Source: a virus
Length of the DNA: 29,303 nt
IMG/VR virus record: IMGVR_UViG_3300017917_002172
Coordinates: 1 to 29,303 of that record
Direction: 5' to 3' (one strand)
Shown: positions 946-26,800 of the stretch, in pieces
How positions within the stretch are numbered: the stretch's first letter is position 1
How the letters are laid out: every line of letters starts with the position of its first letter
The notes under the pieces: generated by a model
Seen by the model: only the letters and a program-made list of their open reading frames with translations
Told to the model about the DNA's origin: nothing
Databases searched by the model: none
Made by a program: the position numbers and the translations under genes

Positions 946-3900
946 ATGACACAATTAATCGACCTTGGTAAAATCAGATTTTACTTCGCAGGACAATGGA
1001 ATGATTCTGCAACTTATGAACTAAATGACGTAGTGCGTTACGGTGGTAACGTTTACGTATACACATATGCCTTAGCATCAGCTGGACACGTACCAACAGA
1101 TGAAAACTATTGGGCAATTATGATTGAAGGACTAAACTTTACTGGTGTTTATGCTCCAGGAACAGAATATCAGGTTGGTGATGGTGTAGCACATGGTGGT
1201 AAGGTTTACATCTCTATTAAGACTGGTTCAGGTCATACTCCTCCAAATACAGAATACTGGTCACAATTTGCAGACGGTATTCAATATGAAGGTGCATATA
1301 GCCCAACTAAAAACTATCAAAAGAATGACGTAGTAACTTACGGCGGTTCAGTTTATATTGCTAAGCAAGATGGAACAAATAATCTTCCAACTGTTACAGC
1401 ATATTGGGATGAATTTGTTGCTGGTGTAGATGCAACTGGTGTTTGGAATGCTGCAACTAATTATGTACCTAATCAGCTAGTTGCATATGGTGCAAAGATT
1501 TACATGTCTATGACAAATAACGTAGGCAAAGCTCCTTCACAAAATGCTGGAGACTGGGTTTCATTTATTGATGGAATTCGTGCAATGGGTACATATGATT
1601 CAGCAACACAATATTATGCAAATGATTTGGTTGTATACGGGTCAACAGTATATATTGCAAAGGGAGATACTCTAGGACACTCTCCAAGTGATACAGCATA
1701 TTGGAATGTTCTTACATCAGGAACAACTATTCGTGGAGAATGGGCTCCTGCAACAGAATATCTTTCTGGAGATGTTGTAAATTGGGGTGGAAGTACTTAC
1801 ATTACAAATGTATTCCACTCATCTACAAATGATGCAATCTCAGGATTTTCTACAGACCAGGCAGCTGGTAAGTGGACAAAGTATAACTCAGGTATTAGAT
1901 ATCGTGGAGCATGGACAGCATTAACATACTATATCAATGGAGACGTTGTAAGTGATGGAGAAAATGCTCGTATTGCTATTGAAGATCACGCAGCAGGATC
2001 ATTCCTAATTGATGATGAAGATAAGTGGGAAATTTTAGCAAAGGGTGCAACTGGTCTTCTTCCAGGTCAAGGAGGAAAGGCAGGATATGTTCTTTCTACA
2101 GATGGTGCAGAAGCATCATTCGAAAGAGATGTAACTAACCTATACTTTGGTGATGGTGCACGTACATTTATTGAAGGCCCAGCAGCACTAACAGATGTTG
2201 CACTTGCCGCAGCATGGGACGCAGAAGGATTTGCACAATCAATCATTGTTAATAATCTTGATTTAACTACAGGTAATGGTGCTGAGCAGTCAGCAGACTT
2301 TATTGCCTATACAACTGGTTCAACAAATGAAGCAGGTTGGGCAGATCTAGGATTTACAGGTCCAGATTTTGATTCAACGACTTATGGAATTACAGGTCCT
2401 GGTGACGGATATGTATTCACAGAAGGATTTGCAGCAACACCATTTACAGTAACAAATGTTGCACTAGCATCACATACTGCAACAATTACTACTGGAGAAG
2501 CAAATACATTTGAAGTCGGTAGAAAAGTACGTCTTTCAAATTGTGGAACTACATTTAACGGAACTCACGTAATTTTATCTGTTGTAAATTCAACAACATT
2601 CACAGTAGAAATTGAAAAAGCGGATGTTGCTTCAACAGCAGTAACTGGAACAGGAACATATCACCTAGGTGATGGAAATCTTGTTCTAGCAACTGGTAAT
2701 CATGGAGCTTACAATAAGATCGTTCTTGCAGCAGGAGGTTTCGTATCTGGATCAACTCAGATGACAATTACTCCAAATGAGAATGTACACATTGAAATTG
2801 CAACTGCTTCAACAAGTGCTACAACAGGTGCTCTAACAGTTGTAGGTGGAGTCGGAATTACTGGAGATCAGTACATTGCTGGTGACTTGACAGTTATCGG
2901 AAACGTGGACTTGCAGGGTGTTACAAAGCTTCCTGTAGGTGCTGGCGCTACACAATATGAAATTGACGCAGAGCTCTCAGATGCTGTTGTTATTGCAGCT
3001 GGTAACTCAGCAGGATTCGTACAGAATGCCTTGGTTAACCTAGGTTCAGGAATCTCTTCATCTGCAGACTATATTGCATATGCTGCAGAAGGAAACAACG
3101 TTTCAGGTTGGGTAGATATGGGTATCACAAATGCCTCATTCAATGATCCAACATATGGAGTTACAGGTCCTCATGACGGATACATCTTTATGTCCGCCCC
3201 ATCAGGTACAACAGGAAAGGGAAATCTTGTAATTGCAACAGATAACACTGGTACAGAAAACAAGATCGTTCTTGCTGCTGGTGGTCTAGGAACTGGTAAT
3301 GAGCAGATGGTCATTACTCCAAACCAAAATGTACATATTGAAATTGCAACACCTTCTACAAATGCACAAACTGGTGCACTTACTGTAGTCGGAGGCGTAG
3401 GTATTTCTGGTCAGATCTCATTCGATGGTTTGATGAGAACAGAAGGACAACTATACTTCGGTGAAGGTGCAGAAGCTTTTGAAGCAGCTGCAGACCTTAC
3501 AAATGCTCGTGCAGTGTTCATTGTTCAGGGAGACCCATACGCACAGGTATCAATTCAGAACCCAACTGCAACATCTTCAGGTGACTTGATTGTCTATGCT
3601 GATAATGGTGATGATCTATCTGGATGGATTGATATGGGTGTTACTGGCTCAGCATTTAGCCAAACAGAATTCGGAATTACTGGTGCAAATGATGGATACA
3701 TTTTCTATCAAGCACCAGAAAATACATCAGGAGCTGGTAACTTAGTAATTGCTACTGGCGACGGTGGTACACAAAATAAGATTATCCTAGCAGCTGGAGG
3801 ATTTGCATCTGGTAAGAATCAGATGACAATTACCCCAGACCAAAATATTCACATCGAAATTGATACCCCTTCTGTTTCACCAATTACTGGTGCTCTAACA

Positions 3901-6369
3901 GTTGTCGGTGGTGTCGGTATCCTTGGTGATATGAATATTGCTGGTGATGTTAATATCTCAGGTCAGATTTCGTTCGCAGGTGGCGGAACAACCGTTGAAA
4001 CTGAAAACCTAGCGGTTACAGATCCGATGGTGTTCGTAGCTAATGGACAGCTTTCTGGAGACTTCCAAGACTTCGCATTCCTTGGACAGTCACGAAGCAT
4101 ACGTGAAGGCGTAGTTCTTGGACCATACACATTAACATCAAAGACAGTTTATAACAACGTTGCAACACTTCTTACTGGTTCAGTTCCTCACGGATTTGAA
4201 ATTGGTGATACAGTAGTTGTAAATAACGTTGATACTCTAATTACTTATAAGACAGCATTTACAGTTGTTCGTAAGAGAGCAAATGAGTCTGTTACAACAG
4301 ATTATACAAAGAATATCGCACTCGTAGCTCGTACTCAAAACGTAGCAACAATTACAACAGACGGAGCACATGGATATTCACAAGGTGAAACAGTAGTAAT
4401 TACTGGAGCAGACACAGGATATAACGGCTCATACACAATTTCTTCTGTACCAACAACTACAACATTTACATATGCAAATACAGGTTCAGATGATACAGCA
4501 AATGCTTCAGTTGGAACTTCAACAGTATCTCGTACCGTATCAAATGATTATGTAACTCTTACAACTTCTCAGCCACACAACTTTGCAGTAGGTGAGCAAG
4601 TAGTTGTATCAGGTATTAGCGCATTCTGGAATGGAACATTTACAATTACAAGCGTTCCAAGCCCAACAACATTTAAGTATATCCAAACAGGGTCAGCGCA
4701 GACTCCAACAAATGCAAATGGAGGCATTGCTTACGTAGCAGTTCCTGCAGATCCAATTTTTAACGGAACTCACGTAATTACAGCAGTTCCAAATACAAAG
4801 TCATTCAGCTTCTTAAAGAATACCCCAGATTTAGCACTAACTGGTACTACAAAGCAGAATGTTAACTATGTAACATCATGGAATATTACAAATGGTGTGG
4901 TAACGCTTACACTTACAAATCCACCAACAGAATCTGTTGGTTCGTTTACAGCAATTCAAAATGTTGATTCATCAATTGATGATACAGTAACATTGACTGC
5001 TGTAAATGCATCACAAGCACCATATACAGTATCGTTCCCTGTAGAACTAGATGATGTCCCACAGACAACACTTGTTACTACAGTATCTGCTACTGTTTCA
5101 AGTCGCAATCGTACAAATAACGTAGCAACACTTACAACTGCAGCAAATCACGGATTTATCGTTGGTCAGCAGGTTGTAGTTTCTGGAGTATCAGCATCAT
5201 TCAATGGAACATACATTATTGATGCAGTTCCTGCAGCTAATAAGTTCTCGTACGCACAGATTGCTTCTAACGTTACAGAAACAGCATCTACTGGTACAGC
5301 TGTAGTTTCAATTCCAAATCCTGGAACAACAACAGAAACTCTTCCAAATCAAGGAACAGCTATAGTAACAGATCCTTCTCGTGGAAGTTACACAGGTCTT
5401 GCACGTGACCACTCAACAGGTCACTGGTGGATCTTCTCAGGTGTAGAGCAAAAGCCAACACTTACAATTGACTTTACTACAGTAGACACAAATGACCTAC
5501 ATATTAGAGATTTGTGGACAACTGGTGGAGATATCTACTCATCAGCAACAACATTTAATATGGTTGATGAAGTTGTAACTACACTCAACCTAGCTAGAGC
5601 AGCAACTACAGTTAATATGGGTGCAAATACAGGCACACTTACAATTGGAAATCCAACAGTTGTTGGTACACAGACAACACAGAATCTGTGGAATACAACA
5701 GCTACAACTGTGAACTTTGCAGGAGCAGCAACTACATTAAATATTGCAGCACCAGTTACAACATTTAATCTAGGAAATACAGCAACAGCAGCACAAACAG
5801 TAAGCATGTTTACTTCATCAACTGGAGCATCAACTTACAGCTTTGCTTCTGGAGCAACTGCAGCAAGCACCACAAAGACAATTAATATTGGTACAAATGG
5901 TGTACTTAACTCTACAACTAATATCAATATTGGTAGCCAAGCAGCAGGTGTTTCAACTGGTACAATTCGACTAGATGCAAATACAGTGCTTGTAGCACAG
6001 GATCCAACTCCTGCACAAGACTTGTCTGTTGCAACTAAGCGTTATGTAGACAATAGACCAGTAATCGTTAATACAACACAAACATTAGTACAAAGAGGAC
6101 AGACTAGAACAGGTGGTTCAACATCAACTGGTCACTACTTTGTAATACCAGCAGCAGGACTAGTCCTTACTCTCCCAGCATCACCAGCACTTGGAGATCA
6201 GATAAAGATTACAGATATCGCTGGAACTGCTTTTAATACGCCGTTTACAGTAGCACGAAACGGTCAGCCAATACAGGGACTGAATGAAGACTTAGTCTTT
6301 AACGTTAATAATCACTCAGTAACGCTAGTATATAGCAATACAACTTATGGATGGAGGATCGTAAGATAA
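946..6369 (+). CDS. giant multidomain tail fibre / tail tip adhesin
   Basis: A 1807-residue fibre with at least five zones. Residues ~12-368 hold seven repeats of about 50 residues with a W/Y-x-Y-x-x-x-D-V-V-x-Y-G-G-x-x-Y pattern, as in carbohydrate-binding modules of the CBM5/12 type. Residues ~399-1015 hold three copies of a ~170-residue repeat ending in NKIVLAAGG, TPNQNVHIEI and ALTVVGGVGI-like signatures. Residues ~1068-1459 are Ig-like beta repeats (HGF-x-x-G-x-x-VVVSGV ... FNGTY). Residues ~1536-1684 carry T-x-N-[LIF]-[GA] repeats resembling a beta-helix. The C-terminus holds an ATKRYVDN segment, common in T4-like fibre proteins, and a last beta domain. It probably binds host surface glycans, which would make it a main host-range determinant. 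GGAG lies ten bases before the ATG. Confidence 0.85.
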   Translation: MTQLIDLGKIRFYFAGQWNDSATYELNDVVRYGGNVYVYTYALASAGHVPTDENYWAIMIEGLNFTGVYAPGTEYQVGDGVAHGGKVYISIKTGSGHTPPNTEYWSQFADGIQYEGAYSPTKNYQKNDVVTYGGSVYIAKQDGTNNLPTVTAYWDEFVAGVDATGVWNAATNYVPNQLVAYGAKIYMSMTNNVGKAPSQNAGDWVSFIDGIRAMGTYDSATQYYANDLVVYGSTVYIAKGDTLGHSPSDTAYWNVLTSGTTIRGEWAPATEYLSGDVVNWGGSTYITNVFHSSTNDAISGFSTDQAAGKWTKYNSGIRYRGAWTALTYYINGDVVSDGENARIAIEDHAAGSFLIDDEDKWEILAKGATGLLPGQGGKAGYVLSTDGAEASFERDVTNLYFGDGARTFIEGPAALTDVALAAAWDAEGFAQSIIVNNLDLTTGNGAEQSADFIAYTTGSTNEAGWADLGFTGPDFDSTTYGITGPGDGYVFTEGFAATPFTVTNVALASHTATITTGEANTFEVGRKVRLSNCGTTFNGTHVILSVVNSTTFTVEIEKADVASTAVTGTGTYHLGDGNLVLATGNHGAYNKIVLAAGGFVSGSTQMTITPNENVHIEIATASTSATTGALTVVGGVGITGDQYIAGDLTVIGNVDLQGVTKLPVGAGATQYEIDAELSDAVVIAAGNSAGFVQNALVNLGSGISSSADYIAYAAEGNNVSGWVDMGITNASFNDPTYGVTGPHDGYIFMSAPSGTTGKGNLVIATDNTGTENKIVLAAGGLGTGNEQMVITPNQNVHIEIATPSTNAQTGALTVVGGVGISGQISFDGLMRTEGQLYFGEGAEAFEAAADLTNARAVFIVQGDPYAQVSIQNPTATSSGDLIVYADNGDDLSGWIDMGVTGSAFSQTEFGITGANDGYIFYQAPENTSGAGNLVIATGDGGTQNKIILAAGGFASGKNQMTITPDQNIHIEIDTPSVSPITGALTVVGGVGILGDMNIAGDVNISGQISFAGGGTTVETENLAVTDPMVFVANGQLSGDFQDFAFLGQSRSIREGVVLGPYTLTSKTVYNNVATLLTGSVPHGFEIGDTVVVNNVDTLITYKTAFTVVRKRANESVTTDYTKNIALVARTQNVATITTDGAHGYSQGETVVITGADTGYNGSYTISSVPTTTTFTYANTGSDDTANASVGTSTVSRTVSNDYVTLTTSQPHNFAVGEQVVVSGISAFWNGTFTITSVPSPTTFKYIQTGSAQTPTNANGGIAYVAVPADPIFNGTHVITAVPNTKSFSFLKNTPDLALTGTTKQNVNYVTSWNITNGVVTLTLTNPPTESVGSFTAIQNVDSSIDDTVTLTAVNASQAPYTVSFPVELDDVPQTTLVTTVSATVSSRNRTNNVATLTTAANHGFIVGQQVVVSGVSASFNGTYIIDAVPAANKFSYAQIASNVTETASTGTAVVSIPNPGTTTETLPNQGTAIVTDPSRGSYTGLARDHSTGHWWIFSGVEQKPTLTIDFTTVDTNDLHIRDLWTTGGDIYSSATTFNMVDEVVTTLNLARAATTVNMGANTGTLTIGNPTVVGTQTTQNLWNTTATTVNFAGAATTLNIAAPVTTFNLGNTATAAQTVSMFTSSTGASTYSFASGATAASTTKTINIGTNGVLNSTTNINIGSQAAGVSTGTIRLDANTVLVAQDPTPAQDLSVATKRYVDNRPVIVNTTQTLVQRGQTRTGGSTSTGHYFVIPAAGLVLTLPASPALGDQIKITDIAGTAFNTPFTVARNGQPIQGLNEDLVFNVNNHSVTLVYSNTTYGWRIVR
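979..2049 (+). repeat. seven tandem CBM5/12-like repeats in the fibre
   Basis: Each unit (about 50 residues) opens with G-x-[WY], then a Tyr, D-V-V or a similar triplet, Y-G-G-x-x-Y and a closing Trp before a Gly-hinge. The copies have diverged at DNA level, so this is an old protein-level repeat rather than a recent DNA duplication. The seventh copy is the most degenerate. Chitin-binding and glycan-binding modules have this aromatic spacing. Confidence 0.75.
2140..3990 (+). repeat. three copies of a ~170-residue fibre repeat
   Basis: The copies begin near 2140, 2935 and 3451. They share a sequence of signatures: SADFIAYTTGS / SADYIAYAAEG / SGDLIVYADNG; GW-x-D-[LM]-G; TYGITGPGDGY or close variants; GNLVIATG; NKIVLAAGG; TPNQNVHIEI; TGALTVVGGVGI. 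Copy 1 is longer because it contains an extra beta domain (2440-2667). Confidence 0.8.
4147..5322 (+). repeat. Ig-like beta repeats in the fibre
   Basis: Repeats of the form NVATLTT...HGF-x-x-G-x-x-VVVSG...FNGTY-x-I-x-x-VP-x-x-x-x-F-x-Y. Clear copies start near 4321, 4525 and 5113. A degenerate copy lies near 4147, and a truncated one near 4752 keeps only the FNGTHVI...VP half. This type of small beta domain is common in phage fibres. Confidence 0.7.
5551..5997 (+). repeat. T-x-N-[LIF]-[GA] beta-helix-like short repeats
   Basis: Short recurring strands such as TTFNMV, TTLNLA, TTVNMG, TTVNFA, TTLNIA, TTFNLG, KTINIG, TNINIG. This signature is known in structural proteins of cyanophages and other T4-like phages, and suggests a trimeric beta-helix or stacked-strand shaft. 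The low complexity produces an open frame on the opposite strand. Confidence 0.65.
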
Positions 6370-6370
6370 A

Positions 6371-6868
6371 ATGGCAACATTAACAAACTTATTAAATAAC
6401 TCTCAGGGTGGCGTAGTACCACCAGGAACAATAGTCGCTTGGGGTGCTAATAGCACTCCAAACGGATATGTATATTGCAATGGTGCGGCAGTTAGCAGAA
6501 GCTTATATGCAGACCTATTTTCAGCAATTGGAACAACATTTGGCGGAGGAGATGGATCATCAACATTTAACGTTCCAGACCTTCGTGGAGAATTTATTCG
6601 TGGATTCGACGATGGTCGTGGAGTAGACTCTGGACGAGGATTTGCTTCTGTTCAGAGCAGTGCGATGCAAGCCCATAACCACCAGATGAGAACATGGTAT
6701 ATTTATGGTTGGAGCTATGGCGACGCAGCTCCAGCAGCTGGTCACTGGGGTTGGGGAACTTCAAACAACAGATCTTATGAATATATGTATGGTGGTAGCA
6801 TGGACGTAACAACAGCAGGAGAAAACCGTCCGAGAAGCATTGCCCTAAGATATTGCATCAAGTTCTAA
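6371..6868 (+). CDS. phage tail collar domain protein (short tail fibre type)
   Basis: A 165-residue protein with the full phage tail-collar pattern. PPGTIVAW is at 17-24, followed by PNGYVYCNGAAVSRSLYADL, then FGGGDGSSTFNVPDLRG up to residue 73, an HNH triad (102-104) in the receptor-tip region, and a C-terminal NRPRSIALRYCIKF. In this family the N-terminal domain forms the trimer base, and the HxH region often binds metal in the tip (T4 gp12 is the classical case). The segment 108-150, rich in Trp, Tyr and Gly, is the variable tip and probably touches the receptor. It begins one base after the stop of the giant fibre and is likely co-translated with it. Confidence 0.9.
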   Translation: MATLTNLLNNSQGGVVPPGTIVAWGANSTPNGYVYCNGAAVSRSLYADLFSAIGTTFGGGDGSSTFNVPDLRGEFIRGFDDGRGVDSGRGFASVQSSAMQAHNHQMRTWYIYGWSYGDAAPAAGHWGWGTSNNRSYEYMYGGSMDVTTAGENRPRSIALRYCIKF

Positions 6869-6900
6869 TTACTAGATCTTGCTTATAAAAAAGGAATATT

Positions 6901-7323
6901 ATGTTAGTATACACGTATAATCCATTAACTATGGAATTCGTTGGAACTTCTAACGCTGATGAAGATCAGTTAAATCCTGGAACCTACTTGTTTCCAGCAT
7001 TTTCTACAACTGAAAAATGTCCTGAATTTAATCCAGAAACGCATATAGCATATTTTAATGTAGACGCTAATAAATGGTTAATTCAAGATATCGAATCTGA
7101 ACCAGAAGTTAAGAAGATAACTGAAGAACAAGTTAATGTATTAAAAAAAGAACTAGAAGAAGTGTTAGAAAAAAGATCTAATGTTTTGCAGAAATTAGGT
7201 TTAAGTGAATTAGAAATACAACTACTTCTAGTAAAGCTTCCTACTTTAGAGCAAATAAATGATCTTATAGGTCAAGACGAACCAGACGGGGGCGTCCCAT
7301 CTTTAAAGATTCCTAATCTTTAA
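6901..7323 (+). CDS. tail fibre assembly-like protein with C-terminal coiled coil
   Basis: A 140-residue protein. Residues 1-60 (YTYNPLTMEFVGTSNA, then NPGTYLFPAFSTTEKCPEF and a strand ending in W) match the style of tail fibre assembly chaperones (Tfa/gp38 type), which help fibres trimerise and may stay on the tip. Residues ~70-125 are strongly charged and helical (Glu/Lys-rich heptads), unlike the usual Tfa C-terminus, so a trimeric coiled coil is likely. The position directly after the collar protein supports a fibre-related job. AAGGA lies five bases upstream of the ATG. The last codons overlap a perfect inverted repeat (7302-7324). Confidence 0.6.
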   Translation: MLVYTYNPLTMEFVGTSNADEDQLNPGTYLFPAFSTTEKCPEFNPETHIAYFNVDANKWLIQDIESEPEVKKITEEQVNVLKKELEEVLEKRSNVLQKLGLSELEIQLLLVKLPTLEQINDLIGQDEPDGGVPSLKIPNL

Positions 7324-7324
7324 A
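7302..7324 (+). repeat. perfect 10-bp inverted repeat at a stop/start junction
   Basis: TTTAAAGATT, CCT, AATCTTTAAA: two 10-base arms around a three-base loop. The right arm contains the TAA stop of the upstream gene and the first base of the ATG at 7324. Only one G-C pair is present, so an RNA hairpin would be weak; a DNA-binding site is equally possible. Confidence 0.6.
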
Positions 7325-7662
7325 TGAATGGAGAAAACTATCTAGCCCCTAGGCTCATCGCACTTGCAAAAGATTCTGCGCTCTCTTTGTGCTTAGATCA
7401 ATGGCAAACTGATGATAGCTTAGTGACATATAAAGATGTTATAGATATTTTTGATAATAATGATATAGATCGTTTTGAAAAAACTAATATTATTATTAAA
7501 GAAAAATTTAAGAATTTCTCTCTTCCAGAAATATCATCAATGATTAAAGAGGCTTATTTAATGTCAGAATCTGTAATTAAGGATACCTTAAGGTTTGTTG
7601 GAAGACCTAATTCTGGATCAGAAACAGAGATTTTTAAGTGGGGGCACTCACATAGCCATTGA
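7324..7662 (+). CDS. hypothetical protein, helical, His-rich C-terminus
   Basis: A 112-residue protein, predicted mostly helical and mildly acidic in the first two thirds, ending in GHSHSH. The ATG abuts the upstream stop without a Shine-Dalgarno, so translation is probably coupled. It ends 33 bases before the first cargo gene and just upstream of that gene's promoter, so it may close the fibre operon. I recognise no family. The His-x-His end could bind metal but could also be incidental. Confidence 0.55.
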   Translation: MNGENYLAPRLIALAKDSALSLCLDQWQTDDSLVTYKDVIDIFDNNDIDRFEKTNIIIKEKFKNFSLPEISSMIKEAYLMSESVIKDTLRFVGRPNSGSETEIFKWGHSHSH

Positions 7663-7688
7663 CATTATCTTACATAAAATGATAGACT
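7659..7688 (+). promoter_or_regulatory. near-consensus promoter of the halogenase cassette
   Basis: TTGACA (7659-7664, perfect -35), an 18-base spacer, then TAGACT (7683-7688, matching TAnnnT). Six bases later is the ATG at 7695, which has no Shine-Dalgarno, so the first cargo mRNA is probably leaderless. A nearer TAAAAT (7675-7680) lies only 10 bases from the -35 and does not fit as its partner. Confidence 0.65.
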
Positions 7689-7694
7689 TATGTC

Positions 7695-8402
7695 ATGGCA
7701 ACAGTTTATTGGTCTAAATTTAACTTAATTAAGTCTTTAAATACTAGTATTTTTGATTTAAAGCCTTACCCAGTATTACCAAATTATATAGGTAATTGTG
7801 GGAAACCAAAAGACCATTCAGTAAATTTTTTTGCATGTCCAGCATGTAAAAGCTATACAGATAACTTATTCTATATTAAAAATCCTTTAGATTTTAATAT
7901 TAGAATAAATTCTAATAATACTGTTGACTCTAGAAGCCCAGCCTCATCACTTATTACTTCTATAAGAGATTTTAATGACAGCTCTTTGATACTAGATTAT
8001 TTTATGTCTATATCATTCTTTTCAGAAAAAGAAATAAGTGTTTCTGTAATGCCTCCATTTTTTTATAATCCTCCAGCAGATGGAGCACATCTTATTCCAG
8101 GAGAGTTTAATATAGGATCATGGTTTAGACCATTAAATGCAACATATTTTATTAAAAATAAAGACGTAGACTTTGTATTAAAAAAAGATGATCCTTTATT
8201 TTTTATAAAATTTAATACAAAAGATAAAATAGACTTTAAAGAATTTTATTTTACAGATTCCCTAACTGGGATAGTAGACTCTACTGTTGGGTTAAAGAAA
8301 TTTAAAAGAAATGTTCCTATTTTAGATCTGTATCATTCTTTTAAAGAAGAAAAATTAAATAAAATTGTTTTAAAAGAGATAAGGAAGTCACTAATTGATT
8401 AA
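7695..8402 (+). CDS. halogenase-associated partner protein 1, function unknown
   Basis: A 235-residue cytosolic protein without signal peptide or membrane helix. An early CPAC motif lies near residues 48-51, within NFFACPACKSYTDN. The second half reads as a beta-rich fold: ISVSVMPPFF, GEFNIGSWFRPLNATYF, then KKDDPLFFIKF. The order 'short Cys motif, beta strands, ...PPxF..., G.W.RP, polar strand, hydrophobic-P-L-F-x-I' parallels the protein at 10013, and both sit immediately upstream of a halogenase. I therefore infer distant homologues in a two-gene module. I do not recognise a characterised family. It could be a substrate-presenting or accessory protein. A near-consensus promoter lies just upstream. 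ATG at 7690 is an alternative but out of frame. Confidence 0.65.
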   Translation: MATVYWSKFNLIKSLNTSIFDLKPYPVLPNYIGNCGKPKDHSVNFFACPACKSYTDNLFYIKNPLDFNIRINSNNTVDSRSPASSLITSIRDFNDSSLILDYFMSISFFSEKEISVSVMPPFFYNPPADGAHLIPGEFNIGSWFRPLNATYFIKNKDVDFVLKKDDPLFFIKFNTKDKIDFKEFYFTDSLTGIVDSTVGLKKFKRNVPILDLYHSFKEEKLNKIVLKEIRKSLID

Positions 8403-10023
8403 TAATATAAACAAAATTGTAATTGTTGGCGGCGGATCCGCTGGTTGGATGACTGCTACAACCATGGTTTCAGTATTTCCTGATAAAAAAATTACTGTTA
8501 TAGAAAGTCCAAATACTCCTACAGTAGGAGTAGGAGAAAGCACATTAGCATTTTTAAATGATTGGTTATTCCTAGTCGGAATAAAAAAAGAAGACTTTAT
8601 GGCAGAATGTGATGCTTCTTATAAATTAAGTATTAAGTTTACAGATTTTCTACAAAAAGATAGTGGCTCATTTCATTACCCATTTGGTAGACCAGCATTT
8701 GACTCAGACTTAGGATTAAATGGCTCTCAGATGTGGTATATTAAAAAAATGCTTAATGAAGATATCCCAGTTTCTGATTATGCAGATTCATATTATCCAG
8801 TAATGTCTTTAGTAAATTCAAATAAGTTTGCCGAAAATATAGGAGATGAATTTTGCTCATTTGATGCTAAGCAAGATGCAGCAGTACATTTTGATGCTTC
8901 CCTATTTGGTTTATGGCTTAAAAATAATAAATGTATACCATATGGAGTTGAACTAAAGACTAATGATGTAGTCTCATTTTCAGAAAACGAAGATGGCATA
9001 GAGTATTTGGTATTAGACAATGGGGAAAAGGTTTATGCAGATATTTTTATAGACTGTACTGGATTTAGATCACTACTTCTGGGAGAATACTTAAAAGAAG
9101 AATTTATAGACTATAGTAATTTGCTTCCAAATAATAGGGCATGGGCAACAAGAATACCTTATTCTAATAAAGAAAAAGAGTTAGAGCCATTTACAAGCTG
9201 TACAGCAATTAAAAATGGGTGGGTATGGAATATACCTTCATGGAATAGAATAGGTACTGGTTATGTCTATAGTGATAAATATGTATCCCCTGAAGACGCT
9301 CTAAAAGAATTTAAAGATTATCTTAGATCTAATAAAATGACGTTTCCTGATATTAATAGAGACGTAGATTCATTTGAGTATAAAGATATAAAAATGCGTA
9401 TAGGTATCCATAAAAGAACATGGGTAAAAAATGTCATTGCTATAGGTCTTTCTGCTGGATTTATTGAGCCATTAGAAAGTAGCGGATTGTTTACAGTCCA
9501 TCAGTTCTTGATGTTATTTGCTCAAATAATGGATAGAGGCAAAATAACTCAATGGGATAGAGATTCATACAATATGATTGCTTTCCAGCAGTTCAATACT
9601 TTTGCAGATTTTGTTGCATTACACTATGCATTGTCTCAAAGAGAGGATACAAAATATTGGAAAGATATAACAAATAAAACTTTTTATCCCGAAATTATCA
9701 ATGAAGAATTTACCAATAGCAGAACTCCAGTTGACCTAATTGTTAGAAAAATATATTCTAATAGCTGGTCAGAAAGAGATTCTTATAGTGGATCTTCTTC
9801 TGGATTAAATTGCGTTGCTACTGGCATGAACTATAACATCCTAACTCCAGTAGGAGTATTTTTGACATATACAAAAAATAAAATAGATATCCAATCATTA
9901 CTAGATAGAAACATAGAGGTTTGGGAATCTAATAAGTCTAAATGGCAACAGCAGGCAGATTCTGCAGAGTCATTATTAAATTATTTATCTAAGAATATAT
10001 ATGGTGATAAAAATGAAAAATAA
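8395..10023 (+). CDS. flavin-dependent (tryptophan-type) halogenase 1
   Basis: A 542-residue flavin-dependent halogenase. These enzymes use FADH2, O2 and halide to make hypohalous acid and halogenate an aromatic substrate such as an indole. Visible: the FAD-binding GGGSAGWM at residues 12-19, GVGEST near 45-50, the catalytic lysine in ASYK (K77, equivalent to K79 of PrnA), the family hallmark WVWNIP at 276-281, and the GFIEPLES glutamate (E358, equivalent to PrnA E346). All key residues are intact and the length is typical. Translation starts at TTG 8395, eight bases before the end of the upstream gene, with AAGGAAG seven bases ahead of it. Reduced flavin would have to come from a host reductase, as none is encoded here. 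The substrate is unknown. Confidence 0.92.
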   Translation: MINNINKIVIVGGGSAGWMTATTMVSVFPDKKITVIESPNTPTVGVGESTLAFLNDWLFLVGIKKEDFMAECDASYKLSIKFTDFLQKDSGSFHYPFGRPAFDSDLGLNGSQMWYIKKMLNEDIPVSDYADSYYPVMSLVNSNKFAENIGDEFCSFDAKQDAAVHFDASLFGLWLKNNKCIPYGVELKTNDVVSFSENEDGIEYLVLDNGEKVYADIFIDCTGFRSLLLGEYLKEEFIDYSNLLPNNRAWATRIPYSNKEKELEPFTSCTAIKNGWVWNIPSWNRIGTGYVYSDKYVSPEDALKEFKDYLRSNKMTFPDINRDVDSFEYKDIKMRIGIHKRTWVKNVIAIGLSAGFIEPLESSGLFTVHQFLMLFAQIMDRGKITQWDRDSYNMIAFQQFNTFADFVALHYALSQREDTKYWKDITNKTFYPEIINEEFTNSRTPVDLIVRKIYSNSWSERDSYSGSSSGLNCVATGMNYNILTPVGVFLTYTKNKIDIQSLLDRNIEVWESNKSKWQQQADSAESLLNYLSKNIYGDKNEK

Positions 10024-10720
10024 AAAAATATTATTTTCAGTTGCAAAAATGACAGATCACTCAAAGTTTATAGATGCTCCAGAACCAGCAAAAAAATTTG
10101 TTCCAGAATGGTATAAGAATTCAGAAAGATTTACTGGAGAAAAAGATGGACTAGACATATCAAACGGATTTGCTAATCTTGGTATTAAAATGTGTATGCC
10201 TTTTTTAGATTCTATGATTTCTGGATATAATGCTACATTGTGGACAGATATTCATGTTCAACAAACTGAATTGGGGCCAAGAATAAATTGGAGAGTTGGG
10301 CCAGATCCATTAGAACAAAGACCAAAAACAAATAAAGAGTTGCCTACACCAGCTGGACACCATGACATACATTTTGCATGGAAAAGCATTTTTTATGTTA
10401 AAACCCCTCCAGGGTACAGTTGTTTAATAACACATCCATTTAACAGATATGATCTTCCATTTACAACTCTTTCTGGAATTGCAGATACAGATACTACTTT
10501 AGGTAGAGGGAATGTACCGTTCTTTTTAAAGAAAGATTTTGAGGGAATTATTAAAGCTGGAACCCCAATATTTCAAATTCTTCCTTTTAAAAGAGAGAAA
10601 TGGGTTTCTGAAAATACTGATTCTATTAATGAAGAAGGAATGAAAAGTGAATTTTTAACAGCACGTAGTTCATTTGGCTGGTATAAAGATTTTTTATGGA
10701 ATAAGAAGTCGTATGAGTAA
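10013..10720 (+). CDS. halogenase-associated partner protein 2, function unknown
   Basis: A 235-residue protein, the same length as the partner at 7695. Features: VPEWYKN near residue 27, KMCMPFLDSMISGY around 60, a strand-rich centre, HHDIHFAW near 113, ITHPFNRYDLPF near 137, then GTPIFQILPFKREKW and a C-terminal Phe/Trp-rich helix. The pattern resembles uncharacterised proteins that I recall accompanying halogenase genes in marine phages; this is unverified. The frame opens at ATG 10001, but I prefer ATG 10013, because GGTGAT at 10003-10008 then serves as a Shine-Dalgarno. The gene overlaps the upstream halogenase by 11 bases and the next halogenase by 8, so the four genes are tightly coupled. 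Confidence 0.65.
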   Translation: MKNKKILFSVAKMTDHSKFIDAPEPAKKFVPEWYKNSERFTGEKDGLDISNGFANLGIKMCMPFLDSMISGYNATLWTDIHVQQTELGPRINWRVGPDPLEQRPKTNKELPTPAGHHDIHFAWKSIFYVKTPPGYSCLITHPFNRYDLPFTTLSGIADTDTTLGRGNVPFFLKKDFEGIIKAGTPIFQILPFKREKWVSENTDSINEEGMKSEFLTARSSFGWYKDFLWNKKSYE

Positions 10721-12239
10721 TATCGTAATTGTTGGTGGCGGAACAGCTGGCTGGATGACTGCCTTATATGCAAAGCATATACTTCCTCATTGTACTGTTA
10801 CAGTAATTGCAAGCGAAGAAATTGGCGTTCTTGGAGCAGGAGAAAGTACTACTCCAATGACAGTAGACTTCCTTGATATTCTTAAGCTTCCAATATCTGA
10901 AGTAATTTCAGAAACAAAAGCTTCAGTTAAAGTAGCCGCTAGATTTACTGGTTGGAATAATACTGGAGATTACTATTACAATCCATTTGGAGCAGATGGA
11001 GAATTAGCAATTGAATCCCTAGATCATTTTTATTATAAAGATGTTAGAGAAGATTGTAGAGTTTTTCCTATAGCAATACTTAATAATGATACTCAAAAAG
11101 ATTATGATTTTAATATAAAATTAGCAGAAAAAAATCTTTTTCCATTCGATAAAAATAAAAATAGATTAGCCAACTTTTCTATTAATTTTGATGCATCTCT
11201 AATGGCCAAATATTTAAAAAATATTGCTATACAAGAAAGAGGAATTATATATATAGACGATGTCGTAGATAGTTTTGAAAATAATCAAGATGGTAGCATA
11301 TCTTATATCATTACAAAAACCCATAAGGTTAAGGCAGACTTTGTATTTGATTGTAGTGGATTTAATAGGCTAATTATAGGAAAACATTTTAATACAAAAT
11401 GGATCTCATATGAAGACTCATTACCAGTAGACAAGGCTTTTCCATTTTTTCTATCACATGAGCAGGTTGGTAAAGGTGTTGTTCCATATACCAATGCTAT
11501 AGCTATGAAATATGGTTGGATGTGGATGACCCCACTACAGCATAGATATGGGTGCGGATACACTTTCGACTCTTCATATATATCTGTAGATGAAGCAAAA
11601 AAAGAAGTCGAAGAGTACTTCGGTTTTGAGGTAAATCCTCCAAAACCTGGTTTATTTTTTCAATTTAAAGCTGGAACTTATGAAAAGAGTTGGGTTAAAA
11701 ATTGTATATCTATAGGTTTAGCATCTGGCTTTATTGAGCCTTTAGAAGCAACATCTATTTTATCTGGACTTCATAATTTAAGAAATATTGACCCAGATAT
11801 GATATTAAATATTTCTGATAAATACATAGATGACTATAATGAAAGATTTAAAAAAAATCAAAGTGAAATAGTAGACTTTATATATCTGCACTACTTGTGT
11901 ACACGAGATGATACAGAATTCTGGAAATATTTTAGCAAAAATAATATAATTCCAATTTCATTATCAGAAAAAATAGATAAGGCAAATAAAGCAGAGCTCT
12001 CATGGAAAGATTTTGAAGAAACTAATATATTTGGCTTAGAAAACTATTTATTTGTTATTGACGGAAATGGAATTATGCCATATAATACATATATAAAAAA
12101 ATATCGTGGAAAGATTTCAAACGAAGAGTTTGAAAATTATTTAAGGTTCAGGATAAATCAAGACCAAAAGTTGTTACATGCCATAGACTGGAATGTATTT
12201 ATAGATATAGTTAAGAGTATTAATGCTAACAATAAATGA
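10713..12239 (+). CDS. flavin-dependent (tryptophan-type) halogenase 2
   Basis: A 508-residue second halogenase, a paralogue of the one at 8395. It keeps GGGTAGWM (residues 8-15), GAGEST (41-46), the catalytic lysine in ASVK (K73) and the GFIEPLEA glutamate (E342). The hallmark WxWxIP is WMWMTP (269-274), with Thr in place of Ile. The substrate-facing region differs from copy 1 in the segment after residue 80 and at the C-terminus, so the two may act on different substrates or positions. The frame is open further upstream, but ATG 10713 places the FAD motif at the usual distance from the N-terminus and overlaps the upstream stop (ATGAGTAA). AAGAAG lies just ahead. No flavin reductase is nearby. 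Confidence 0.9.
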   Translation: MSNIVIVGGGTAGWMTALYAKHILPHCTVTVIASEEIGVLGAGESTTPMTVDFLDILKLPISEVISETKASVKVAARFTGWNNTGDYYYNPFGADGELAIESLDHFYYKDVREDCRVFPIAILNNDTQKDYDFNIKLAEKNLFPFDKNKNRLANFSINFDASLMAKYLKNIAIQERGIIYIDDVVDSFENNQDGSISYIITKTHKVKADFVFDCSGFNRLIIGKHFNTKWISYEDSLPVDKAFPFFLSHEQVGKGVVPYTNAIAMKYGWMWMTPLQHRYGCGYTFDSSYISVDEAKKEVEEYFGFEVNPPKPGLFFQFKAGTYEKSWVKNCISIGLASGFIEPLEATSILSGLHNLRNIDPDMILNISDKYIDDYNERFKKNQSEIVDFIYLHYLCTRDDTEFWKYFSKNNIIPISLSEKIDKANKAELSWKDFEETNIFGLENYLFVIDGNGIMPYNTYIKKYRGKISNEEFENYLRFRINQDQKLLHAIDWNVFIDIVKSINANNK

Positions 12240-12510
12240 CTTTAAGTCAACAAGCAAAAGATTTTTTGAAAAAAGCTACTGGAATAAGGTAAATGCTATA
12301 GAGGCCTTGTCATTTGGCACAAAAATTGTTATAATATTTCCAGGCCTTTTATTTGGAGTCCAGTTCTGGTGGCTCTACATATTTGCCTTGGTATCCAGTA
12401 TGGCGTTGGTCATGACATCAACAATTAAAACGCTACCAACCATTATATGGTTTAATATAATCTGGATTATTTTAGCATCATCATCGATAGCTAAACATTT
12501 TTTAACCTAG
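12223..12510 (+). CDS. small integral membrane protein, 2-3 helices
   Basis: A 95-residue protein. After a basic, polar N-terminus (residues 1-25) come strongly hydrophobic segments at about 30-50, 52-65 and 72-90 (IVIIFPGLLFGVQFWWLYIF; then ALVSSMALVM; then IIWFNIIWIILAS), so two or three membrane helices are likely. The start overlaps the end of halogenase 2 by 17 bases, tying its translation to the cassette. It could be a membrane anchor or transport aid for the halogenase products, or a holin, since small two- or three-helix proteins are common holins; no endolysin is nearby to favour that. No family recognised. Confidence 0.65.
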   Translation: MLTINDFKSTSKRFFEKSYWNKVNAIEALSFGTKIVIIFPGLLFGVQFWWLYIFALVSSMALVMTSTIKTLPTIIWFNIIWIILASSSIAKHFLT

Positions 12511-12801: not shown

Positions 12802-14547
12802 GTGTCTTACCAGCTTAAAGTAATCAAGGACCATCCAGTAGCCTTTTGGCCGCTGGATGAGTCTCTTGGTACTGCCGCCACAGATATATCTGGATGCGGA
12901 AACAATGGAATATATACTGGATCCCCAGCAACAAATATTCTATCACTTGTTCCAGGAGGAATCTCTGGTACTCGTATTACAAATACTGCATATGTAACAT
13001 TTCCAATTACAAAAGACTATTATGGTTCAAATGTTGGATCTGGTCTTGGAACATCATATACATCAGACAATGATTTTACTTTAGAGGTATGGTTTCACCA
13101 ATCAATAGAGTCTTCGGACGAAACCCCGCTTCTTGCAGATATCACAAATGATATTGGTTTATATTGGCATAATGGAGATATTGTATTTCGTGTCTCAGAT
13201 ACAGAGTCAGTTAGACACTGTATGCCATATACAAAGAAGTCTATGCATGTCGCAGGTGTATATTCAGTAAACTCAATAACCCTATATATAGATTCAGTTC
13301 CAGTTGAATCAAAATCTTTATCTAATTTTAAATTTACAAATACAGCACTTACTCTGCAGGCGGGACCTACATTAAATTCAGAAGATACATTTATTGTAGA
13401 TGCTCCAGCTGTTTACAGATATGGGCTAAATCAAGAAGCTTTGAGAAAGCATTATTTAGACGGCAATGTAACAGTATCTCCAATTCATGTTGTATACCCA
13501 GATAATGGAATTTTATTTACAGGAACAGACGCCAATATTAGAGCGGCCTTTGATTATTCCTATCCAGTAAATAAGTCATGGGCACAATTCTTAGATGAAA
13601 ATACATACTATGATCCAAATAGAAAATATGTGACATTTTATCAAACAGACACTATTGAGGCAAAAACATTTATTATTGAGGATTTCTTTTTAGTACCATC
13701 ACAGATTAATTTAAATACATCGAAGGTGGAGTGGAGAAATGATTTTGGGGTTGAAGTAGAGTCAAGCGTGGATGGAATAAATTGGGTGGCATGTAACAAT
13801 GGACAGCCATTACCACAATATACAAAAGATTCATTTGATTCAAGCTATAAAGTATATATTCGAATTACCATGTCTACTTCAGACTCTAGTAAATTCCTTC
13901 CTAAATTATCATTCTTCTGTATAACATTCTATTCAGACAGAACTATATTTGCAGATAATTATGGAGATAAGATTACATCTAATTCAGACTATTATTTAGG
14001 ATCTTTAAATTATCCTATTTTATCTCGTAATTACATGAATGGAATTAGGGCTAAAGATGGCTCAGGATTTGATTTGACCACATCTAGCTCTGTGAAGTCT
14101 GTAGAGATGTTCTTTACACCCCTTACGTTGGCTTCTAACACACTTTTGTTCAGTTCTGCTGGTACAACCACAAGATTTGGCTGGAATGGCTCTGGAGCAA
14201 TTTCTAAGGCCAATATTAGCAAGGTATACATAAATAACGTAGATGTCTCATCAGCTACAGATATAACTAATTATTTAGTAGAAGAGGAGCCGCATCATAT
14301 TGTCTTGGTATTTAGCACACCAATTACTGGAGTAATTCAGTTTAATTATGAGATAGTTGGAGGACCAAGCAATCTATATAAGAATATTGCTACCTATGAA
14401 TCAGAATTAACAGTGGATAAGGTAGAGACCCACTTCGAGCTATATACTGGCAAGCCAGTAGAAAGCGTATCAGAATCTGCCATCACCCTGACACAATTGG
14501 AGCCAGCATATTACAATAATGACTGGATCGTTCTACAATCTATATAA
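12802..14547 (+). CDS. LamG/concanavalin-like virion protein
   Basis: A 581-residue protein from a GTG start. Residues ~9-220 form a laminin-G/concanavalin A-like jelly roll: the opening HPVAFWPLDES with ATDISGCGNNG, FTLEVWFHQ in the middle, then an ITLYIDSVPVES strand and a closing ALTLQAGP strand. This fold is typical of glycan-binding phage proteins. The region ~225-390 is a separate beta domain. Residues ~415-560 look like a second jelly roll (VEMFFTPL, KVYINNVDV, EPHHIVLVFS). It is most likely a surface or tail-tip adhesin or minor tail protein. It stands alone between cargo and head genes, and its start looks leaderless. Confidence 0.75.
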   Translation: MSYQLKVIKDHPVAFWPLDESLGTAATDISGCGNNGIYTGSPATNILSLVPGGISGTRITNTAYVTFPITKDYYGSNVGSGLGTSYTSDNDFTLEVWFHQSIESSDETPLLADITNDIGLYWHNGDIVFRVSDTESVRHCMPYTKKSMHVAGVYSVNSITLYIDSVPVESKSLSNFKFTNTALTLQAGPTLNSEDTFIVDAPAVYRYGLNQEALRKHYLDGNVTVSPIHVVYPDNGILFTGTDANIRAAFDYSYPVNKSWAQFLDENTYYDPNRKYVTFYQTDTIEAKTFIIEDFFLVPSQINLNTSKVEWRNDFGVEVESSVDGINWVACNNGQPLPQYTKDSFDSSYKVYIRITMSTSDSSKFLPKLSFFCITFYSDRTIFADNYGDKITSNSDYYLGSLNYPILSRNYMNGIRAKDGSGFDLTTSSSVKSVEMFFTPLTLASNTLLFSSAGTTTRFGWNGSGAISKANISKVYINNVDVSSATDITNYLVEEEPHHIVLVFSTPITGVIQFNYEIVGGPSNLYKNIATYESELTVDKVETHFELYTGKPVESVSESAITLTQLEPAYYNNDWIVLQSI

Positions 14548-19071: not shown

Positions 19072-19098
19072 TGATTGACACAGAATAAGGAGATTTAC

Positions 19099-19497
19099 AT
19101 GTCATTCGAGACATTAAAAGTATCTGAACTAAAGAAAGTGGCTGAAGATTTCGGAGTAGAGATTGACGGTCTAAAAAATAAAACAGACATTATTGCAGCA
19201 CTCTCAGAAGAGGGAGTCACCTGGGCGGTATATCAAAAGACCGTAAAAGACGTAGAAGAGGCAGAAGACATGTCAGTAGAAGTTCTTCCAAAGTTTGATC
19301 CTAAAAAGGAACAGCCAGAAGATACAGTTTTGGTTAAGATGGAAAGAGACAATTTCCGTTATGACATTCAAGGGTTTACATTTACAAAAGAGCATCCGTT
19401 TATTGCTATGAATAAAGAAAAGGCCCAAGCAATTTTTGATAAGGAGGCAGGATTTAGGTTAGCAACTCCTAAAGAAGTGCAGGAGTTTTATCACTAA
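19099..19497 (+). CDS. SAP/HeH-like domain protein after capsid (connector-region protein)
   Basis: A 132-residue protein. Residues ~3-40 (LKVSELKKVAEDFGVEIDGL, then KTDIIAALSEEG) form the helix-extended-helix pattern of SAP/HeH/Rho-N-like motifs, which often appear on small phage proteins downstream of the capsid gene and may contact nucleic acid or head components. Residues ~70-132 are beta-rich with FRYDIQGFTFTKEHPFIAM. TTG at 19075 is in frame, but ATG 19099 has AAGGAG six bases ahead, so I chose it. A head-to-tail connection or head-fibre role is inferred from position only. Confidence 0.65.
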   Translation: MSFETLKVSELKKVAEDFGVEIDGLKNKTDIIAALSEEGVTWAVYQKTVKDVEEAEDMSVEVLPKFDPKKEQPEDTVLVKMERDNFRYDIQGFTFTKEHPFIAMNKEKAQAIFDKEAGFRLATPKEVQEFYH

Positions 19498-23825: not shown

Positions 23826-26800
23826 ATGGCTGACGAGACAATCAGTACACGAATAGTCGCTAATGCCGACTTTTCAGCCCTTATTGCAGATGTGCATAAG
23901 GTTACTGCCAGCCTATCTAAATTACAAGAACAATTAGCTAACTCTAATAAGATGTTGGCCAATAACATTGCGGTGATGAATCGCAATTTTGCAGATACAA
24001 TTAGAAGTACTGGACAATATTCAACACACTTTGTAAGCCTTACATCAGATGTAGAAAAGTTTGGTAAAAACCTAGACGGTGGAAGACTTAAGTTAAAAGA
24101 TTATTTCGGTACATTTCAACAGCACGTTAGAACATCTGGCGGATTAATTAGAGAACTTGCTAGACAGCAAGTCGCTATGCAAAACGCTATTCTTCAACCA
24201 CTAGGAAGAAATGCTCAAGGACTTCAACAATTTAACGTTCATATTCCAAGAGGCCTTGATGAAATAAAGAATAAGACATCTTTAGCTAGACAAGAACTAG
24301 CTATTATGAATCGTGTTATTCAAGACGGTGCAGTTCAACTTATTAACTGGGGTAAAAATACTCAATGGGCAGGTCGCCAGCTAACAGTTGGTTTAACGCT
24401 ACCCCTAGCAGCATTTGGTAAAGCATCAGCAGACGCATTTAGACAAGCTGATCAAGAATTAACTCGTCTTACAAAGGTGTATGGAGATATTGCTGGTGCA
24501 ACATCTGCAGAGTTAGGTAAGGTTCGCCAAGATGTAATTGCAACATCGAAAGAATTATCTCAGGCATATGGTACTAATTTTAATGAAACAATTTCTTTAG
24601 CTGCTGATATTGCTGCAACTGGAAAGCAAGGCCAGGAGCTATTGGCTTCAGTAAAAGAAACAAGCCGCCTTGCCGTTCTAGGTGAAGTTGATAGACAAGA
24701 AGCAATGAAAGCAACCCTCGCTATTCAAACAGCATTTCAGCAAAATACAGATGAATTGTCACAATCAATTAACTTCCTTAACGCAGTTGAAAACCAGACA
24801 TCTACATCTCTAGCAGACTTAGTTGAAGCTATTCCAAAAGCTGGTCCAGTAGTAAAACAGTTAGGCGGAGATATACAAGATCTTGCGCTATACATGACTG
24901 CTATGCGTGAAGGTGGAATTAACGCATCTGAAGGAGCTAACGCATTAAAGTCAGGACTTGCAGCATTAATTAATCCAACAAAACAAACTGTTGGGGTAAT
25001 GAAAGATTTTGGCATAGATATACTTTCAATGGTTAAAAGAAATGCTGGAGACACTACATCTCTTTTATTTGATTTGCAGGGAGCATTGGATAATTTAGAT
25101 CCACTACAAAAAGCTCAAGCAATCGAACAGTTATTTGGTAAGTTTCAGTTTGCAAGAATCAGCGCTCTTTTGAATAACCTTGGTAGACAGGGAAGCCAAA
25201 CGCTTAATGTGCTTGACCTAATGAAAGCTAGTGCTTCAGAGTTAGAAACTGTAGCTGGTCGAGAATTAGCAGCCGTAACAGAATCTGCTTCTGGAAAATA
25301 TAAGAGAGCAATTGAATCTCTTCGTGCTGATTTAGCAGGATTAGGCGACCAATTCCTTACAATAGGAACAACAATGATTAATATTGTTGACAAGGCCTTG
25401 AAGTTTTTTGATAAATTGCCACAACCTATTAAGCAAGCAATTACATTCTTAGGCGCTCTTACAGCTATGGCTGGACCACTTATTATGATCACTGGTGTTC
25501 TTGCTAACTTCTTTGGATACATCTTAAAGGGTGTAATGCATATGAAGGCTTTCTTTAAGGGTGGAGAAGGTTGGAAATATTTAACTCCTGAAATGATGGC
25601 AGCTGAAAAGGCTGGTAAGTTAGTTGAACAAACATTTTATAGCGATGCAAAAGCGGCATCTGTTTTACAACTAGCTTTAAGAAACTTAATTGATGAGTTT
25701 AGTATATTAGAAACAAAAGCAAAGTCTGGAGCAATGGCAGTCAATCCAGCAGTTTCTACGCTTGCTGGAAATGCTGTAATGGGAGCTGGAGTCAGAGAAG
25801 TTATTCCAGGACATCCTTTAGTAGGAGATTATGGAACTCGTGCTTCAACACATATGGTTCCTCGTGCTTCTTTAACAGAAGAACAAAGATTGCAGCAAAC
25901 AATATTCGGACTTGTTCCTGGATCAATTCCAGTAAATAGAAAAATTGGTGATGCTCCTCAAATTTATATGAATCAACCATTACCTCCAGTTCAGGGATTA
26001 ACACAGGTTAATGGGGTTTCAACGGGAGTTGTGGCAGGAGAAGCAGCAAGATGGCATGCAATGATGGCGACACTTGCAATGCAATCAAAGTCTGAGATTG
26101 AACAGCTAAAGAAACAAATAGCTACTACTGGAGTTGTAAGTAAAGATTTCATGTCACAGTTTGATGATATTTTGCCCATTGTTTCTGGAATTACAGATAA
26201 TGCAGCAACACAGTCATCAGTAATAGTTGCAGAATTACGTGCTGGTAAGATTACAGTTGAACAAGCAAGAGCAAAAATAATTGCATTAAATCTTGAAATT
26301 GAAAGAATGATTGGCGCAGCTGTTGGTACTCAAGCAGCAGCTATGGGAAGAACAATAAACCCAACTATGGTTCCAACATTAGACCAACCAGTTGTTGATG
26401 CTACTGGCAAATCAAATATGCGTGAGCTATTTAAGAAAAGCAAGACAAGAGATCTTTTAGATAAGGTTTCTCGTTCATTAGGTGTTAGAACTTCAGGCGC
26501 AGGATATAATATTGAGACTACTCGTCCAAAGAAATTTGCAACAGGAGTAGTTGATGCTGCAAATTCATTTAGAACTCTTACAGCTAAAATTGGCGGACTA
26601 AGAAGTTTAAAGAGATTTAAAACAAGAGGTACTGGATCAGAAAGAACTGGAAGATCTAATAGAGCAAATTCAGAAGAAGGATCTCTTCCATATGAACCAA
26701 TATCAAGATCTACTTCTACTAAACCATCTTCTCGCAATAGAGGCTGGAGAGAAGATGAGGTTATGGGCATGGGAGAGCCGCCAAGAGGATGGGTTGTCGG

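Follow-up and report, generated by a model that had tools for sequence, protein, structure and literature searches.

The IMG/VR virus record IMGVR_UViG_3300017917_002172, one record of 29,303 bases that was analyzed whole and is referred to here as the window, carries four overlapping open reading frames (ORFs) on the plus strand, in which two flavin-dependent halogenases (H1 and H2) alternate with two partner proteins (P1 and P2) predicted to share a dUTPase-like fold. The gene order is P1–H1–P2–H2, and the P1/H1, H1/P2 and P2/H2 junctions overlap by 8, 11 and 8 bases, respectively, which confirms the arrangement given in a preliminary description of this DNA, including the length of 235 aa for each partner. 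P1 (7695..8402) matches phrog_17480 (4.5e-19) and represents the P1 branch of a DUF6065-like superfamily; P2 (10013..10720, ATG at 10013) matches phrog_7084 (2.9e-36) and falls in the branch that includes DUF6065. H1 (8395..10023, TTG start at 8395) is a VirX1-type halogenase of 542 aa (PF04820, 3e-97), and H2 (10713..12239, ATG at 10713) is a second halogenase of 508 aa from a different clade (PF04820, 1.6e-102). The starts of P2 and H2 were chosen by support from relatives; an alternative P2 start at 10001 would add 4 aa, and a start at 10674 corresponds to a longer, mechanically called H2 ORF. We tentatively read the four genes as one variant of a modular cassette for tail-tip tailoring, in which the halogenases would modify the fibre tip and the P proteins would serve as accessory or adaptor factors, and we give this reading somewhat less than an even chance.

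Six other contig groups (L010/L011, L012, L013, L041, L042 and L380-L382) show the same P1–H1–P2–H2 arrangement, and in all seven phages the four-gene block is preceded by tail fibre, collar and tail fibre assembly-like genes and followed by LamG and portal genes. When relatives were anchored on the downstream LamG gene, the slot between the tail-fibre genes and LamG proved variable. It holds one H1-type halogenase and four P genes in L383; a 2-oxoglutarate (2OG) oxygenase, P2, two halogenases, P1 and an N-acetylglucosamine (GlcNAc) transferase (PF11397, 1.8e-39) in L469 (3159-9163); a halogenase, a carbamoyltransferase and P genes in L482 (1522-8340); five 2OG-Fe(II) oxygenases and two P genes in the L474 type (5044-9995); a methyltransferase-domain protein and two P genes in L466 (5871-9971); and nothing but four P genes in L471 (2950-5821). 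Fibre-like genes occupy the slot in L461 and L465, with neither tailoring enzymes nor P genes. From these contents it follows that, wherever the slot is filled, P proteins are kept more consistently than halogenases, and that the latter are just one kind among several tailoring enzymes that can replace each other there. The Actinomycetia phage DSL-LC01 likewise has a halogenase and a glycosyltransferase directly behind collagen-like fibre genes; this lake-water actinophage record (L484, 10222-15691, minus strand) shows no recognized P gene in its annotation.

The relationship between the two partners emerges only at the level of deep profiles. BLASTP gave no match between P1 and P2, and shallow profiles gave a weak one (4% probability). 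For the deep comparison, 68 P1-type and 71 P2-type proteins were picked by separate profiles into non-overlapping sets, and hhalign aligned the two with 96.9% probability (E 1.9e-10), with five column-shuffled controls staying below 1%. The merging of P1 and P2 by iterated hidden Markov models was not used as proof, as iterated profiles can drift. Judged by these profiles, P1 and P2 are homologous. In the partner tree they occupy separate clades, each with 100% support and with many other phage proteins between them, which places each in an older family of its own.

Structures of both partners were predicted with AlphaFold (AF2) from alignments without rows from annotated phage records, and the models have a predicted local distance difference test (pLDDT) score of 93.9 for P1 and 95.2 for P2. 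A Foldseek search of the PDB with the P2 model returned dUTPases (E 3e-4, prob 1.00, target template modelling (TM) score up to 0.69), as did the search with the P1 model (E 1e-3, prob 1.00, target TM 0.56), and in BFVD the first named function among the P1 matches was a viral dUTP diphosphatase. The earlier suggestion that the partners are related stood, with predicted folds that are both dUTPase-like rather than unrelated, and the accompanying idea of a carrier or protection factor is now constrained by this predicted fold. Both models resemble the dUTPase/dCTP deaminase superfamily of beta-clip fold, exemplified by Bacillus subtilis YosS (2xy3) and the enzymes of chlorella virus (3c2t) and African swine fever virus (6ljo). 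The herpesvirus and adenovirus dUTPase-related proteins, which also appear among the P1 fold matches, are cases in which dUTPase-fold proteins have been re-used as non-enzymatic adaptors.

At the level of sequence, the signal lies in P2. Its family profile retrieved 11 matches from 177,635 PDB sequences, 9 of them dUTPases or dUTPase-like and aligned at motifs III-IV, each match being weak (E >=0.024), and hhalign against an alignment of 69 dUTPases covered motifs II-IV with E 4.1e-5 and 70% probability, with shuffled and reversed controls at 0.05 or above. The P1 profile gave no match to the PDB sequences and no signal against the dUTPase alignment, and a scan of viral contigs with the single P1 sequence gave no match; because P1 alone lacks a sequence signal, its kinship with dUTPases rests on its fold and on its homology to P2. 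Members of the P2 family match PF19541, DUF6065 (19/70, best 2.4e-33), but the P1 and P2 of the window do not, even at E 1; no mention of DUF6065 was found in the literature searched. One family member is named 'triphosphate nucleotidohydrolase' in the GenBank annotation of S-CREM1.

The residues that define a dUTPase active site are largely missing from both partners. P2 of the window has Asp158 in motif III and Gln188 in motif IV, as do most of its family (Asp in 58/71 and Gln in 54/71); compared with dUTPases, it lacks the motif II Ser (Phe143 is aligned there), the motif III Tyr (DTDTT instead of DSDY) and the Gly-rich motif V at the C-terminus. P1 likewise lacks these elements and, in addition, the motif III Asp and the motif IV Gln, with Asn139 and Phe170 at the respective positions; across its family, Asn replaces the Asp in 45/68 proteins and Tyr replaces the Gln in 60/68. 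Relative to dUTPases, the partners also have longer N- and C-terminal parts and an extra invariant Cys, which is common to both families (68/68 P1 and 70/71 P2 proteins), lines up in the profile alignment and corresponds to Cys48 in P1. Trp143 and Arg145 of P1 are strongly conserved across relatives from very different phages. Little of the dUTPase active site is thus left in P1 and P2, and the partners probably represent a divergent, non-dUTPase branch of the dUTPase superfamily.

The halogenases, for their part, belong to two clades and have intact catalytic residues. H1 and H2 share 31% identity. H1 has VirX1 as its best PDB match (6qgm, 2.5e-108), which is also its closest relative of solved structure, and keeps WVWNIP and GFIEPLE; H2 keeps GFIEPLE. 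The GxGxxG flavin-binding motif is present in both as GGGSAG in H1 and GGGTAG in H2, and the catalytic Lys (equivalent to PrnA Lys79) and the active-site Glu are invariant in their alignments (Lys77 and Glu358/Glu361 in H1; Lys73 and Glu342/Glu345 in H2). H2 reads WMWMTP where WxWxIP is expected, and the Ile is also replaced in the L010, L012 and L013 orthologues (ITP, ITP and VTS); as a side observation, the H2 clade thus offers the variants WMWMTP, WMWITP and WMWVTS of this hallmark motif. No flavin reductase was recognized in the cassette.

A tree built from 84 phage halogenases groups the six H1 proteins of the cassettes in a single clade (100%) within the VirX1-type group, and H1 sits in a 17-row VirX1 clade with syn9 gp41/gp42, S-RIM44 and S-H35 (Shimodaira–Hasegawa-like approximate likelihood ratio test, SH-aLRT, 91). 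The six cassette H2 proteins form their own clade (100%) in a different large group outside the VirX1 clade, and other phage halogenases fall between the two. Since they occupy separate clades, H1 and H2 are not a recent duplication; the tree indicates that they were brought together, not duplicated in place. The preliminary description had taken the four genes for a tandem duplicated module, a view that we reject because the trees split both H1 from H2 and P1 from P2 into fully supported clades with many other phage proteins between them.

Linkage between P genes and halogenases was assessed in 115 deduplicated halogenase loci containing 157 halogenases, with labels shuffled within loci. An adjacent P gene on the same strand was found at 27/157 halogenases, compared with a null mean of 10.8 and a maximum of 20 in 2000 shuffles. 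The expectation that the partner family lies next to halogenases was thereby upheld as linkage above chance but not as devotion to them, given that 83 of the 104 P-anchored viral loci show no halogenase. An obligate dependence of the partner on a halogenase was accordingly rejected, as most P loci lack a halogenase and sister phages pair P genes with other enzymes. Near P genes without a halogenase, the commonest recognized neighbours are 2OG-Fe(II) oxygenases, not nucleotide enzymes, and for 34/77 P genes a halogenase or 2OG-like gene lies no more than three genes away (null mean 26.4, maximum 34 in 1000). In these Pfam and PHROG neighbour scans, pseudo-alignments of unrelated neighbours were used for scanning only and are meaningless as alignments. 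PF04820 matches above the cut-off occur in only 4 of the 12 bacterial genome bins that hold a P2 relative, and two of these 4 are marginal; P2-type proteins were seen in several Gammaproteobacteria genome bins (L285-L290), mostly without a clear halogenase in the genome. In the HF2-group haloviruses (L008, 8001-8666; L277, which is HF2), a P2-type gene is found in the vicinity of ribonucleotide reductase, and HF2 encodes a further, dUTPase-family protein (PF00692) elsewhere.

Among the closest known systems is that of VirX1 from cyanophage Syn10 (PDB 6qgm), which is identical to syn9 gp42 and shares with H1 its catalytic motifs and its placing behind tail-fibre genes. The 3' end of syn9 gp42 overlaps the P2-type gene gp43, again behind tail-fibre genes, and relatives of gp43 immediately follow a halogenase gene in S-CREM1, S-RIM44, P-TIM40 and Sf-FR1, and lie near one in Sf-FP1/Sf-CH3. 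In cyanophages of several genera (syn9, S-RIM44, S-CREM1, P-TIM40 and Sf-FR1), a tail fibre, fibre assembly or Gly-rich adhesin gene is followed by a small gene, one or two halogenases, a P2-type gene and 2OG oxygenases, so that oxidative tailoring enzymes accompany the halogenase and P2-type gene downstream of the fibre genes. The window differs from these islands in that its phage is probably not a cyanophage and its cassette contains no 2OG enzyme; moreover, syn9 has two tandem VirX1-type halogenases and a single P gene, whereas the window interleaves P1 and P2 and has a second halogenase of another clade. Members of two PHROG families, named 'DNA endonuclease V' (phrog_274) and 'ferrochelatase' (phrog_3531), turn up repeatedly in the islands of 2OG oxygenases and halogenases (syn9, L003, 11054-17024; L006, 10343-14164); one of these proteins (L006, 12267-12902) has a weak 2OG profile match (7e-4), and the PHROG names may be wrong. 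VirX1 itself is trimeric, its open active site accommodates bulky substrates, and it is active in vitro without a partner on many small aromatics (PMC8407142); a partner is therefore not needed for catalysis on small molecules. A natural substrate of phage halogenases, VirX1 included, was not found stated in the literature consulted, where reviews speculate on antibiotics.

A candidate substrate is encoded just upstream of the cassette. The tail collar-domain fibre tip protein (6371..6868, plus strand; PF07484, 1.1e-24; phrog_523, tail collar fiber), whose position is conserved in cassette phages, carries the aromatic strip WYIYGW...HWGWG at residues 109-129 (6695..6757, plus strand), and a strip of the form WYxYGW...H(W/F)GWG is found in the otherwise variable collar C-terminal tip of all cassette phages. 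Among 95 collar matches examined, 9/9 collars with the strip lie in cassette loci, and 0/85 halogenase-free collars have it. The collar tip of L383, which has one halogenase, is Tyr-rich and Trp-free. The content of Trp and Tyr in the last 80 collar residues is higher in the presence of a halogenase (6 vs 57 clusters, p 5.5e-5, the clusters not being phylogenetically independent). The collar tip had no match in 50,697 phage records, and collagen-like GXY repeats, sought as modification targets, were absent from the fibres of the window and of S-CREM1.

Under the tail-tip reading, the halogenases would take FADH2 from a host reductase during virion production and attach halogen to aromatic residues at the tip of the tail fibre expressed alongside them; the most plausible site is the Trp/Tyr-rich strip of the upstream collar protein. 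The dUTPase-fold P proteins would no longer hydrolyse dUTP and would act as accessory factors, either guiding the enzyme to the end of the fibre or keeping that end in place while it is modified. Both dUTPases and tail fibres usually form trimers, and the P proteins may be trimers like these and VirX1, which would suit symmetric docking; the modification would tune receptor binding. In a bolder form, which we consider possible though on the unlikely side, phages would use swappable cassettes to halogenate aromatic residues in the tail tips with which they themselves bind receptors, and the divergent dUTPase-fold proteins of the DUF6065 superfamily would remain in these cassettes as substrate adaptors while the tailoring enzymes change (halogenases, 2OG hydroxylases, and glycosyl-, carbamoyl- and methyltransferases). 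Several observations weigh against a tail-tip role. No P gene is adjacent to 130/157 of the deduplicated halogenases, and many phage halogenases are situated elsewhere, such as before the terminase in HTVC008M or after SbcC in S-H35. Some P genes lie near nucleotide-metabolism genes (next to ribonucleotide reductase in CRP-6, and near it in HF2 and S-RIM4), and with the motif III Asp and motif IV Gln kept, P2 may retain some nucleotide binding or hydrolysis. The association with the collar motif comes down to seven closely related phages and one contrast, and L469 carries two halogenases, yet its collar tip is poor in Trp and Tyr.

Of the other explanations, small-molecule biosynthesis comes first: the halogenases would act on tryptophan in free form, on a different indole or phenol, or on a metabolite made by the phage. 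The halogenated product would be a signal, an antibiotic or a toxin, and the P proteins would bind small molecules of the pathway. PrnA/RebH-type relatives do act on free tryptophan, VirX1 accepts many small aromatics (PMC8407142), antibiotic protection has been proposed for cyanophage halogenases (PMC9964418; PMC2984593), and a halogenated metabolite cluster has been proposed in jumbo cyanophages (PMC7824862). We nevertheless regard it as unlikely, though deserving of attention, as the cassette holds no other biosynthetic genes, its place inside the tail-fibre block is conserved across unrelated phages, and the same slot can hold instead enzymes that typically decorate macromolecules, among them the GlcNAc transferase and 2OG hydroxylases. 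A nucleotide route, in which the P proteins are working or altered enzymes of the dUTPase/dCTP-deaminase kind and the cassette serves to change nucleotide pools or to produce a modified base, can draw on the fold itself, the Asp and Gln retained in much of the P2 family, several P relatives beside ribonucleotide reductase or MazG and the S-CREM1 annotation; the losses in motifs II, III and V of P2, the Asn and Tyr substitutions of the P1 family, the predominance of 2OG oxygenases among recognized neighbours and the separate PF00692 protein of HF2 make it improbable.

The model of the preliminary description, in which each partner is devoted to carrying or protecting the halogenase encoded next after it and the pairs arose by duplication of one module, agrees with the strict gene order in seven phages, the gene overlaps and the homology of the partners. 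It is contradicted by the older clades to which both halogenases and both partners belong, by the four P genes that accompany the single halogenase of L383, by the P genes without a halogenase in L466, L471 and L474, and by mixed pairings in other phages, where P1-type genes adjoin H2-type halogenases and P2-type genes adjoin H1-type ones, so that the tie of each partner to its own halogenase did not hold and the model now appears very unlikely. We are equally doubtful that the P proteins are virion parts, namely trimeric dUTPase-fold tail-tip or receptor-binding subunits encoded with their own fibre. The trimer-forming fold family and the co-swapping with fibre genes in the slot would fit such a role, but receptor-binding tips vary fast, whereas the invariant Cys and the P1 residues Trp143 and Arg145 are conserved in very different phages, and the P genes overlap enzyme genes.

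The remaining genes around the cassette complete the layout. Upstream, all on the plus strand, lie a tail fibre protein of 1807 aa (946..6369; phrog_9851, tail fiber, 1.4e-60), whose position is conserved in cassette phages, a tail-fibre-assembly-like protein of 140 aa (6901..7323; phrog_105, 1.8e-7, and phrog_7290, 1.3e-6, tail fiber assembly) and a 112-aa protein (7324..7662) that occupies the same place in most cassette phages. The promoter that had been proposed ahead of P1 (TTGACA-18-TAGACT, 7659-7688) proved to be at chance level, with 32 such elements found in the region against 33.9 expected. A 95-aa protein (12223..12510, plus strand) overlaps H2 and has the same place in cassette phages; further downstream are an 87-aa gene, the LamG (ConA-like lectin) protein of 581 aa (12802..14547, plus strand; PF13385, 8.1e-8) that forms the constant right border of the variable slot, and portal, head protease and capsid genes. 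The portal shares 59% identity with its counterpart in Streptomyces phage StarPlatinum (Stanwilliamsviridae), which makes this a Stanwilliamsviridae-related phage and therefore probably an actinophage rather than a cyanophage. Elsewhere in the window, a 140-aa protein (19075-19497) has a sub-threshold SAP-domain match (0.0014), and an ORF of >1800 aa (23826-29303) that runs off the end has, by eye only, the look of a tape measure protein.

Phage halogenases, including the adjacent pair of syn9, are already known. We found no description of their partners as a dUTPase-fold superfamily that includes DUF6065, accompanies VirX1 and shares a swappable tail-fibre slot with other tailoring enzymes. 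The analysis gives DUF6065 a predicted fold and, for the first time, a functional context. The conserved neighbours of VirX1, which are tail-fibre genes to one side and a dUTPase-fold protein plus 2OG oxygenases to the other, point to modification of a tail protein, and this context makes the question of the halogenase substrate directly testable on a culturable phage.

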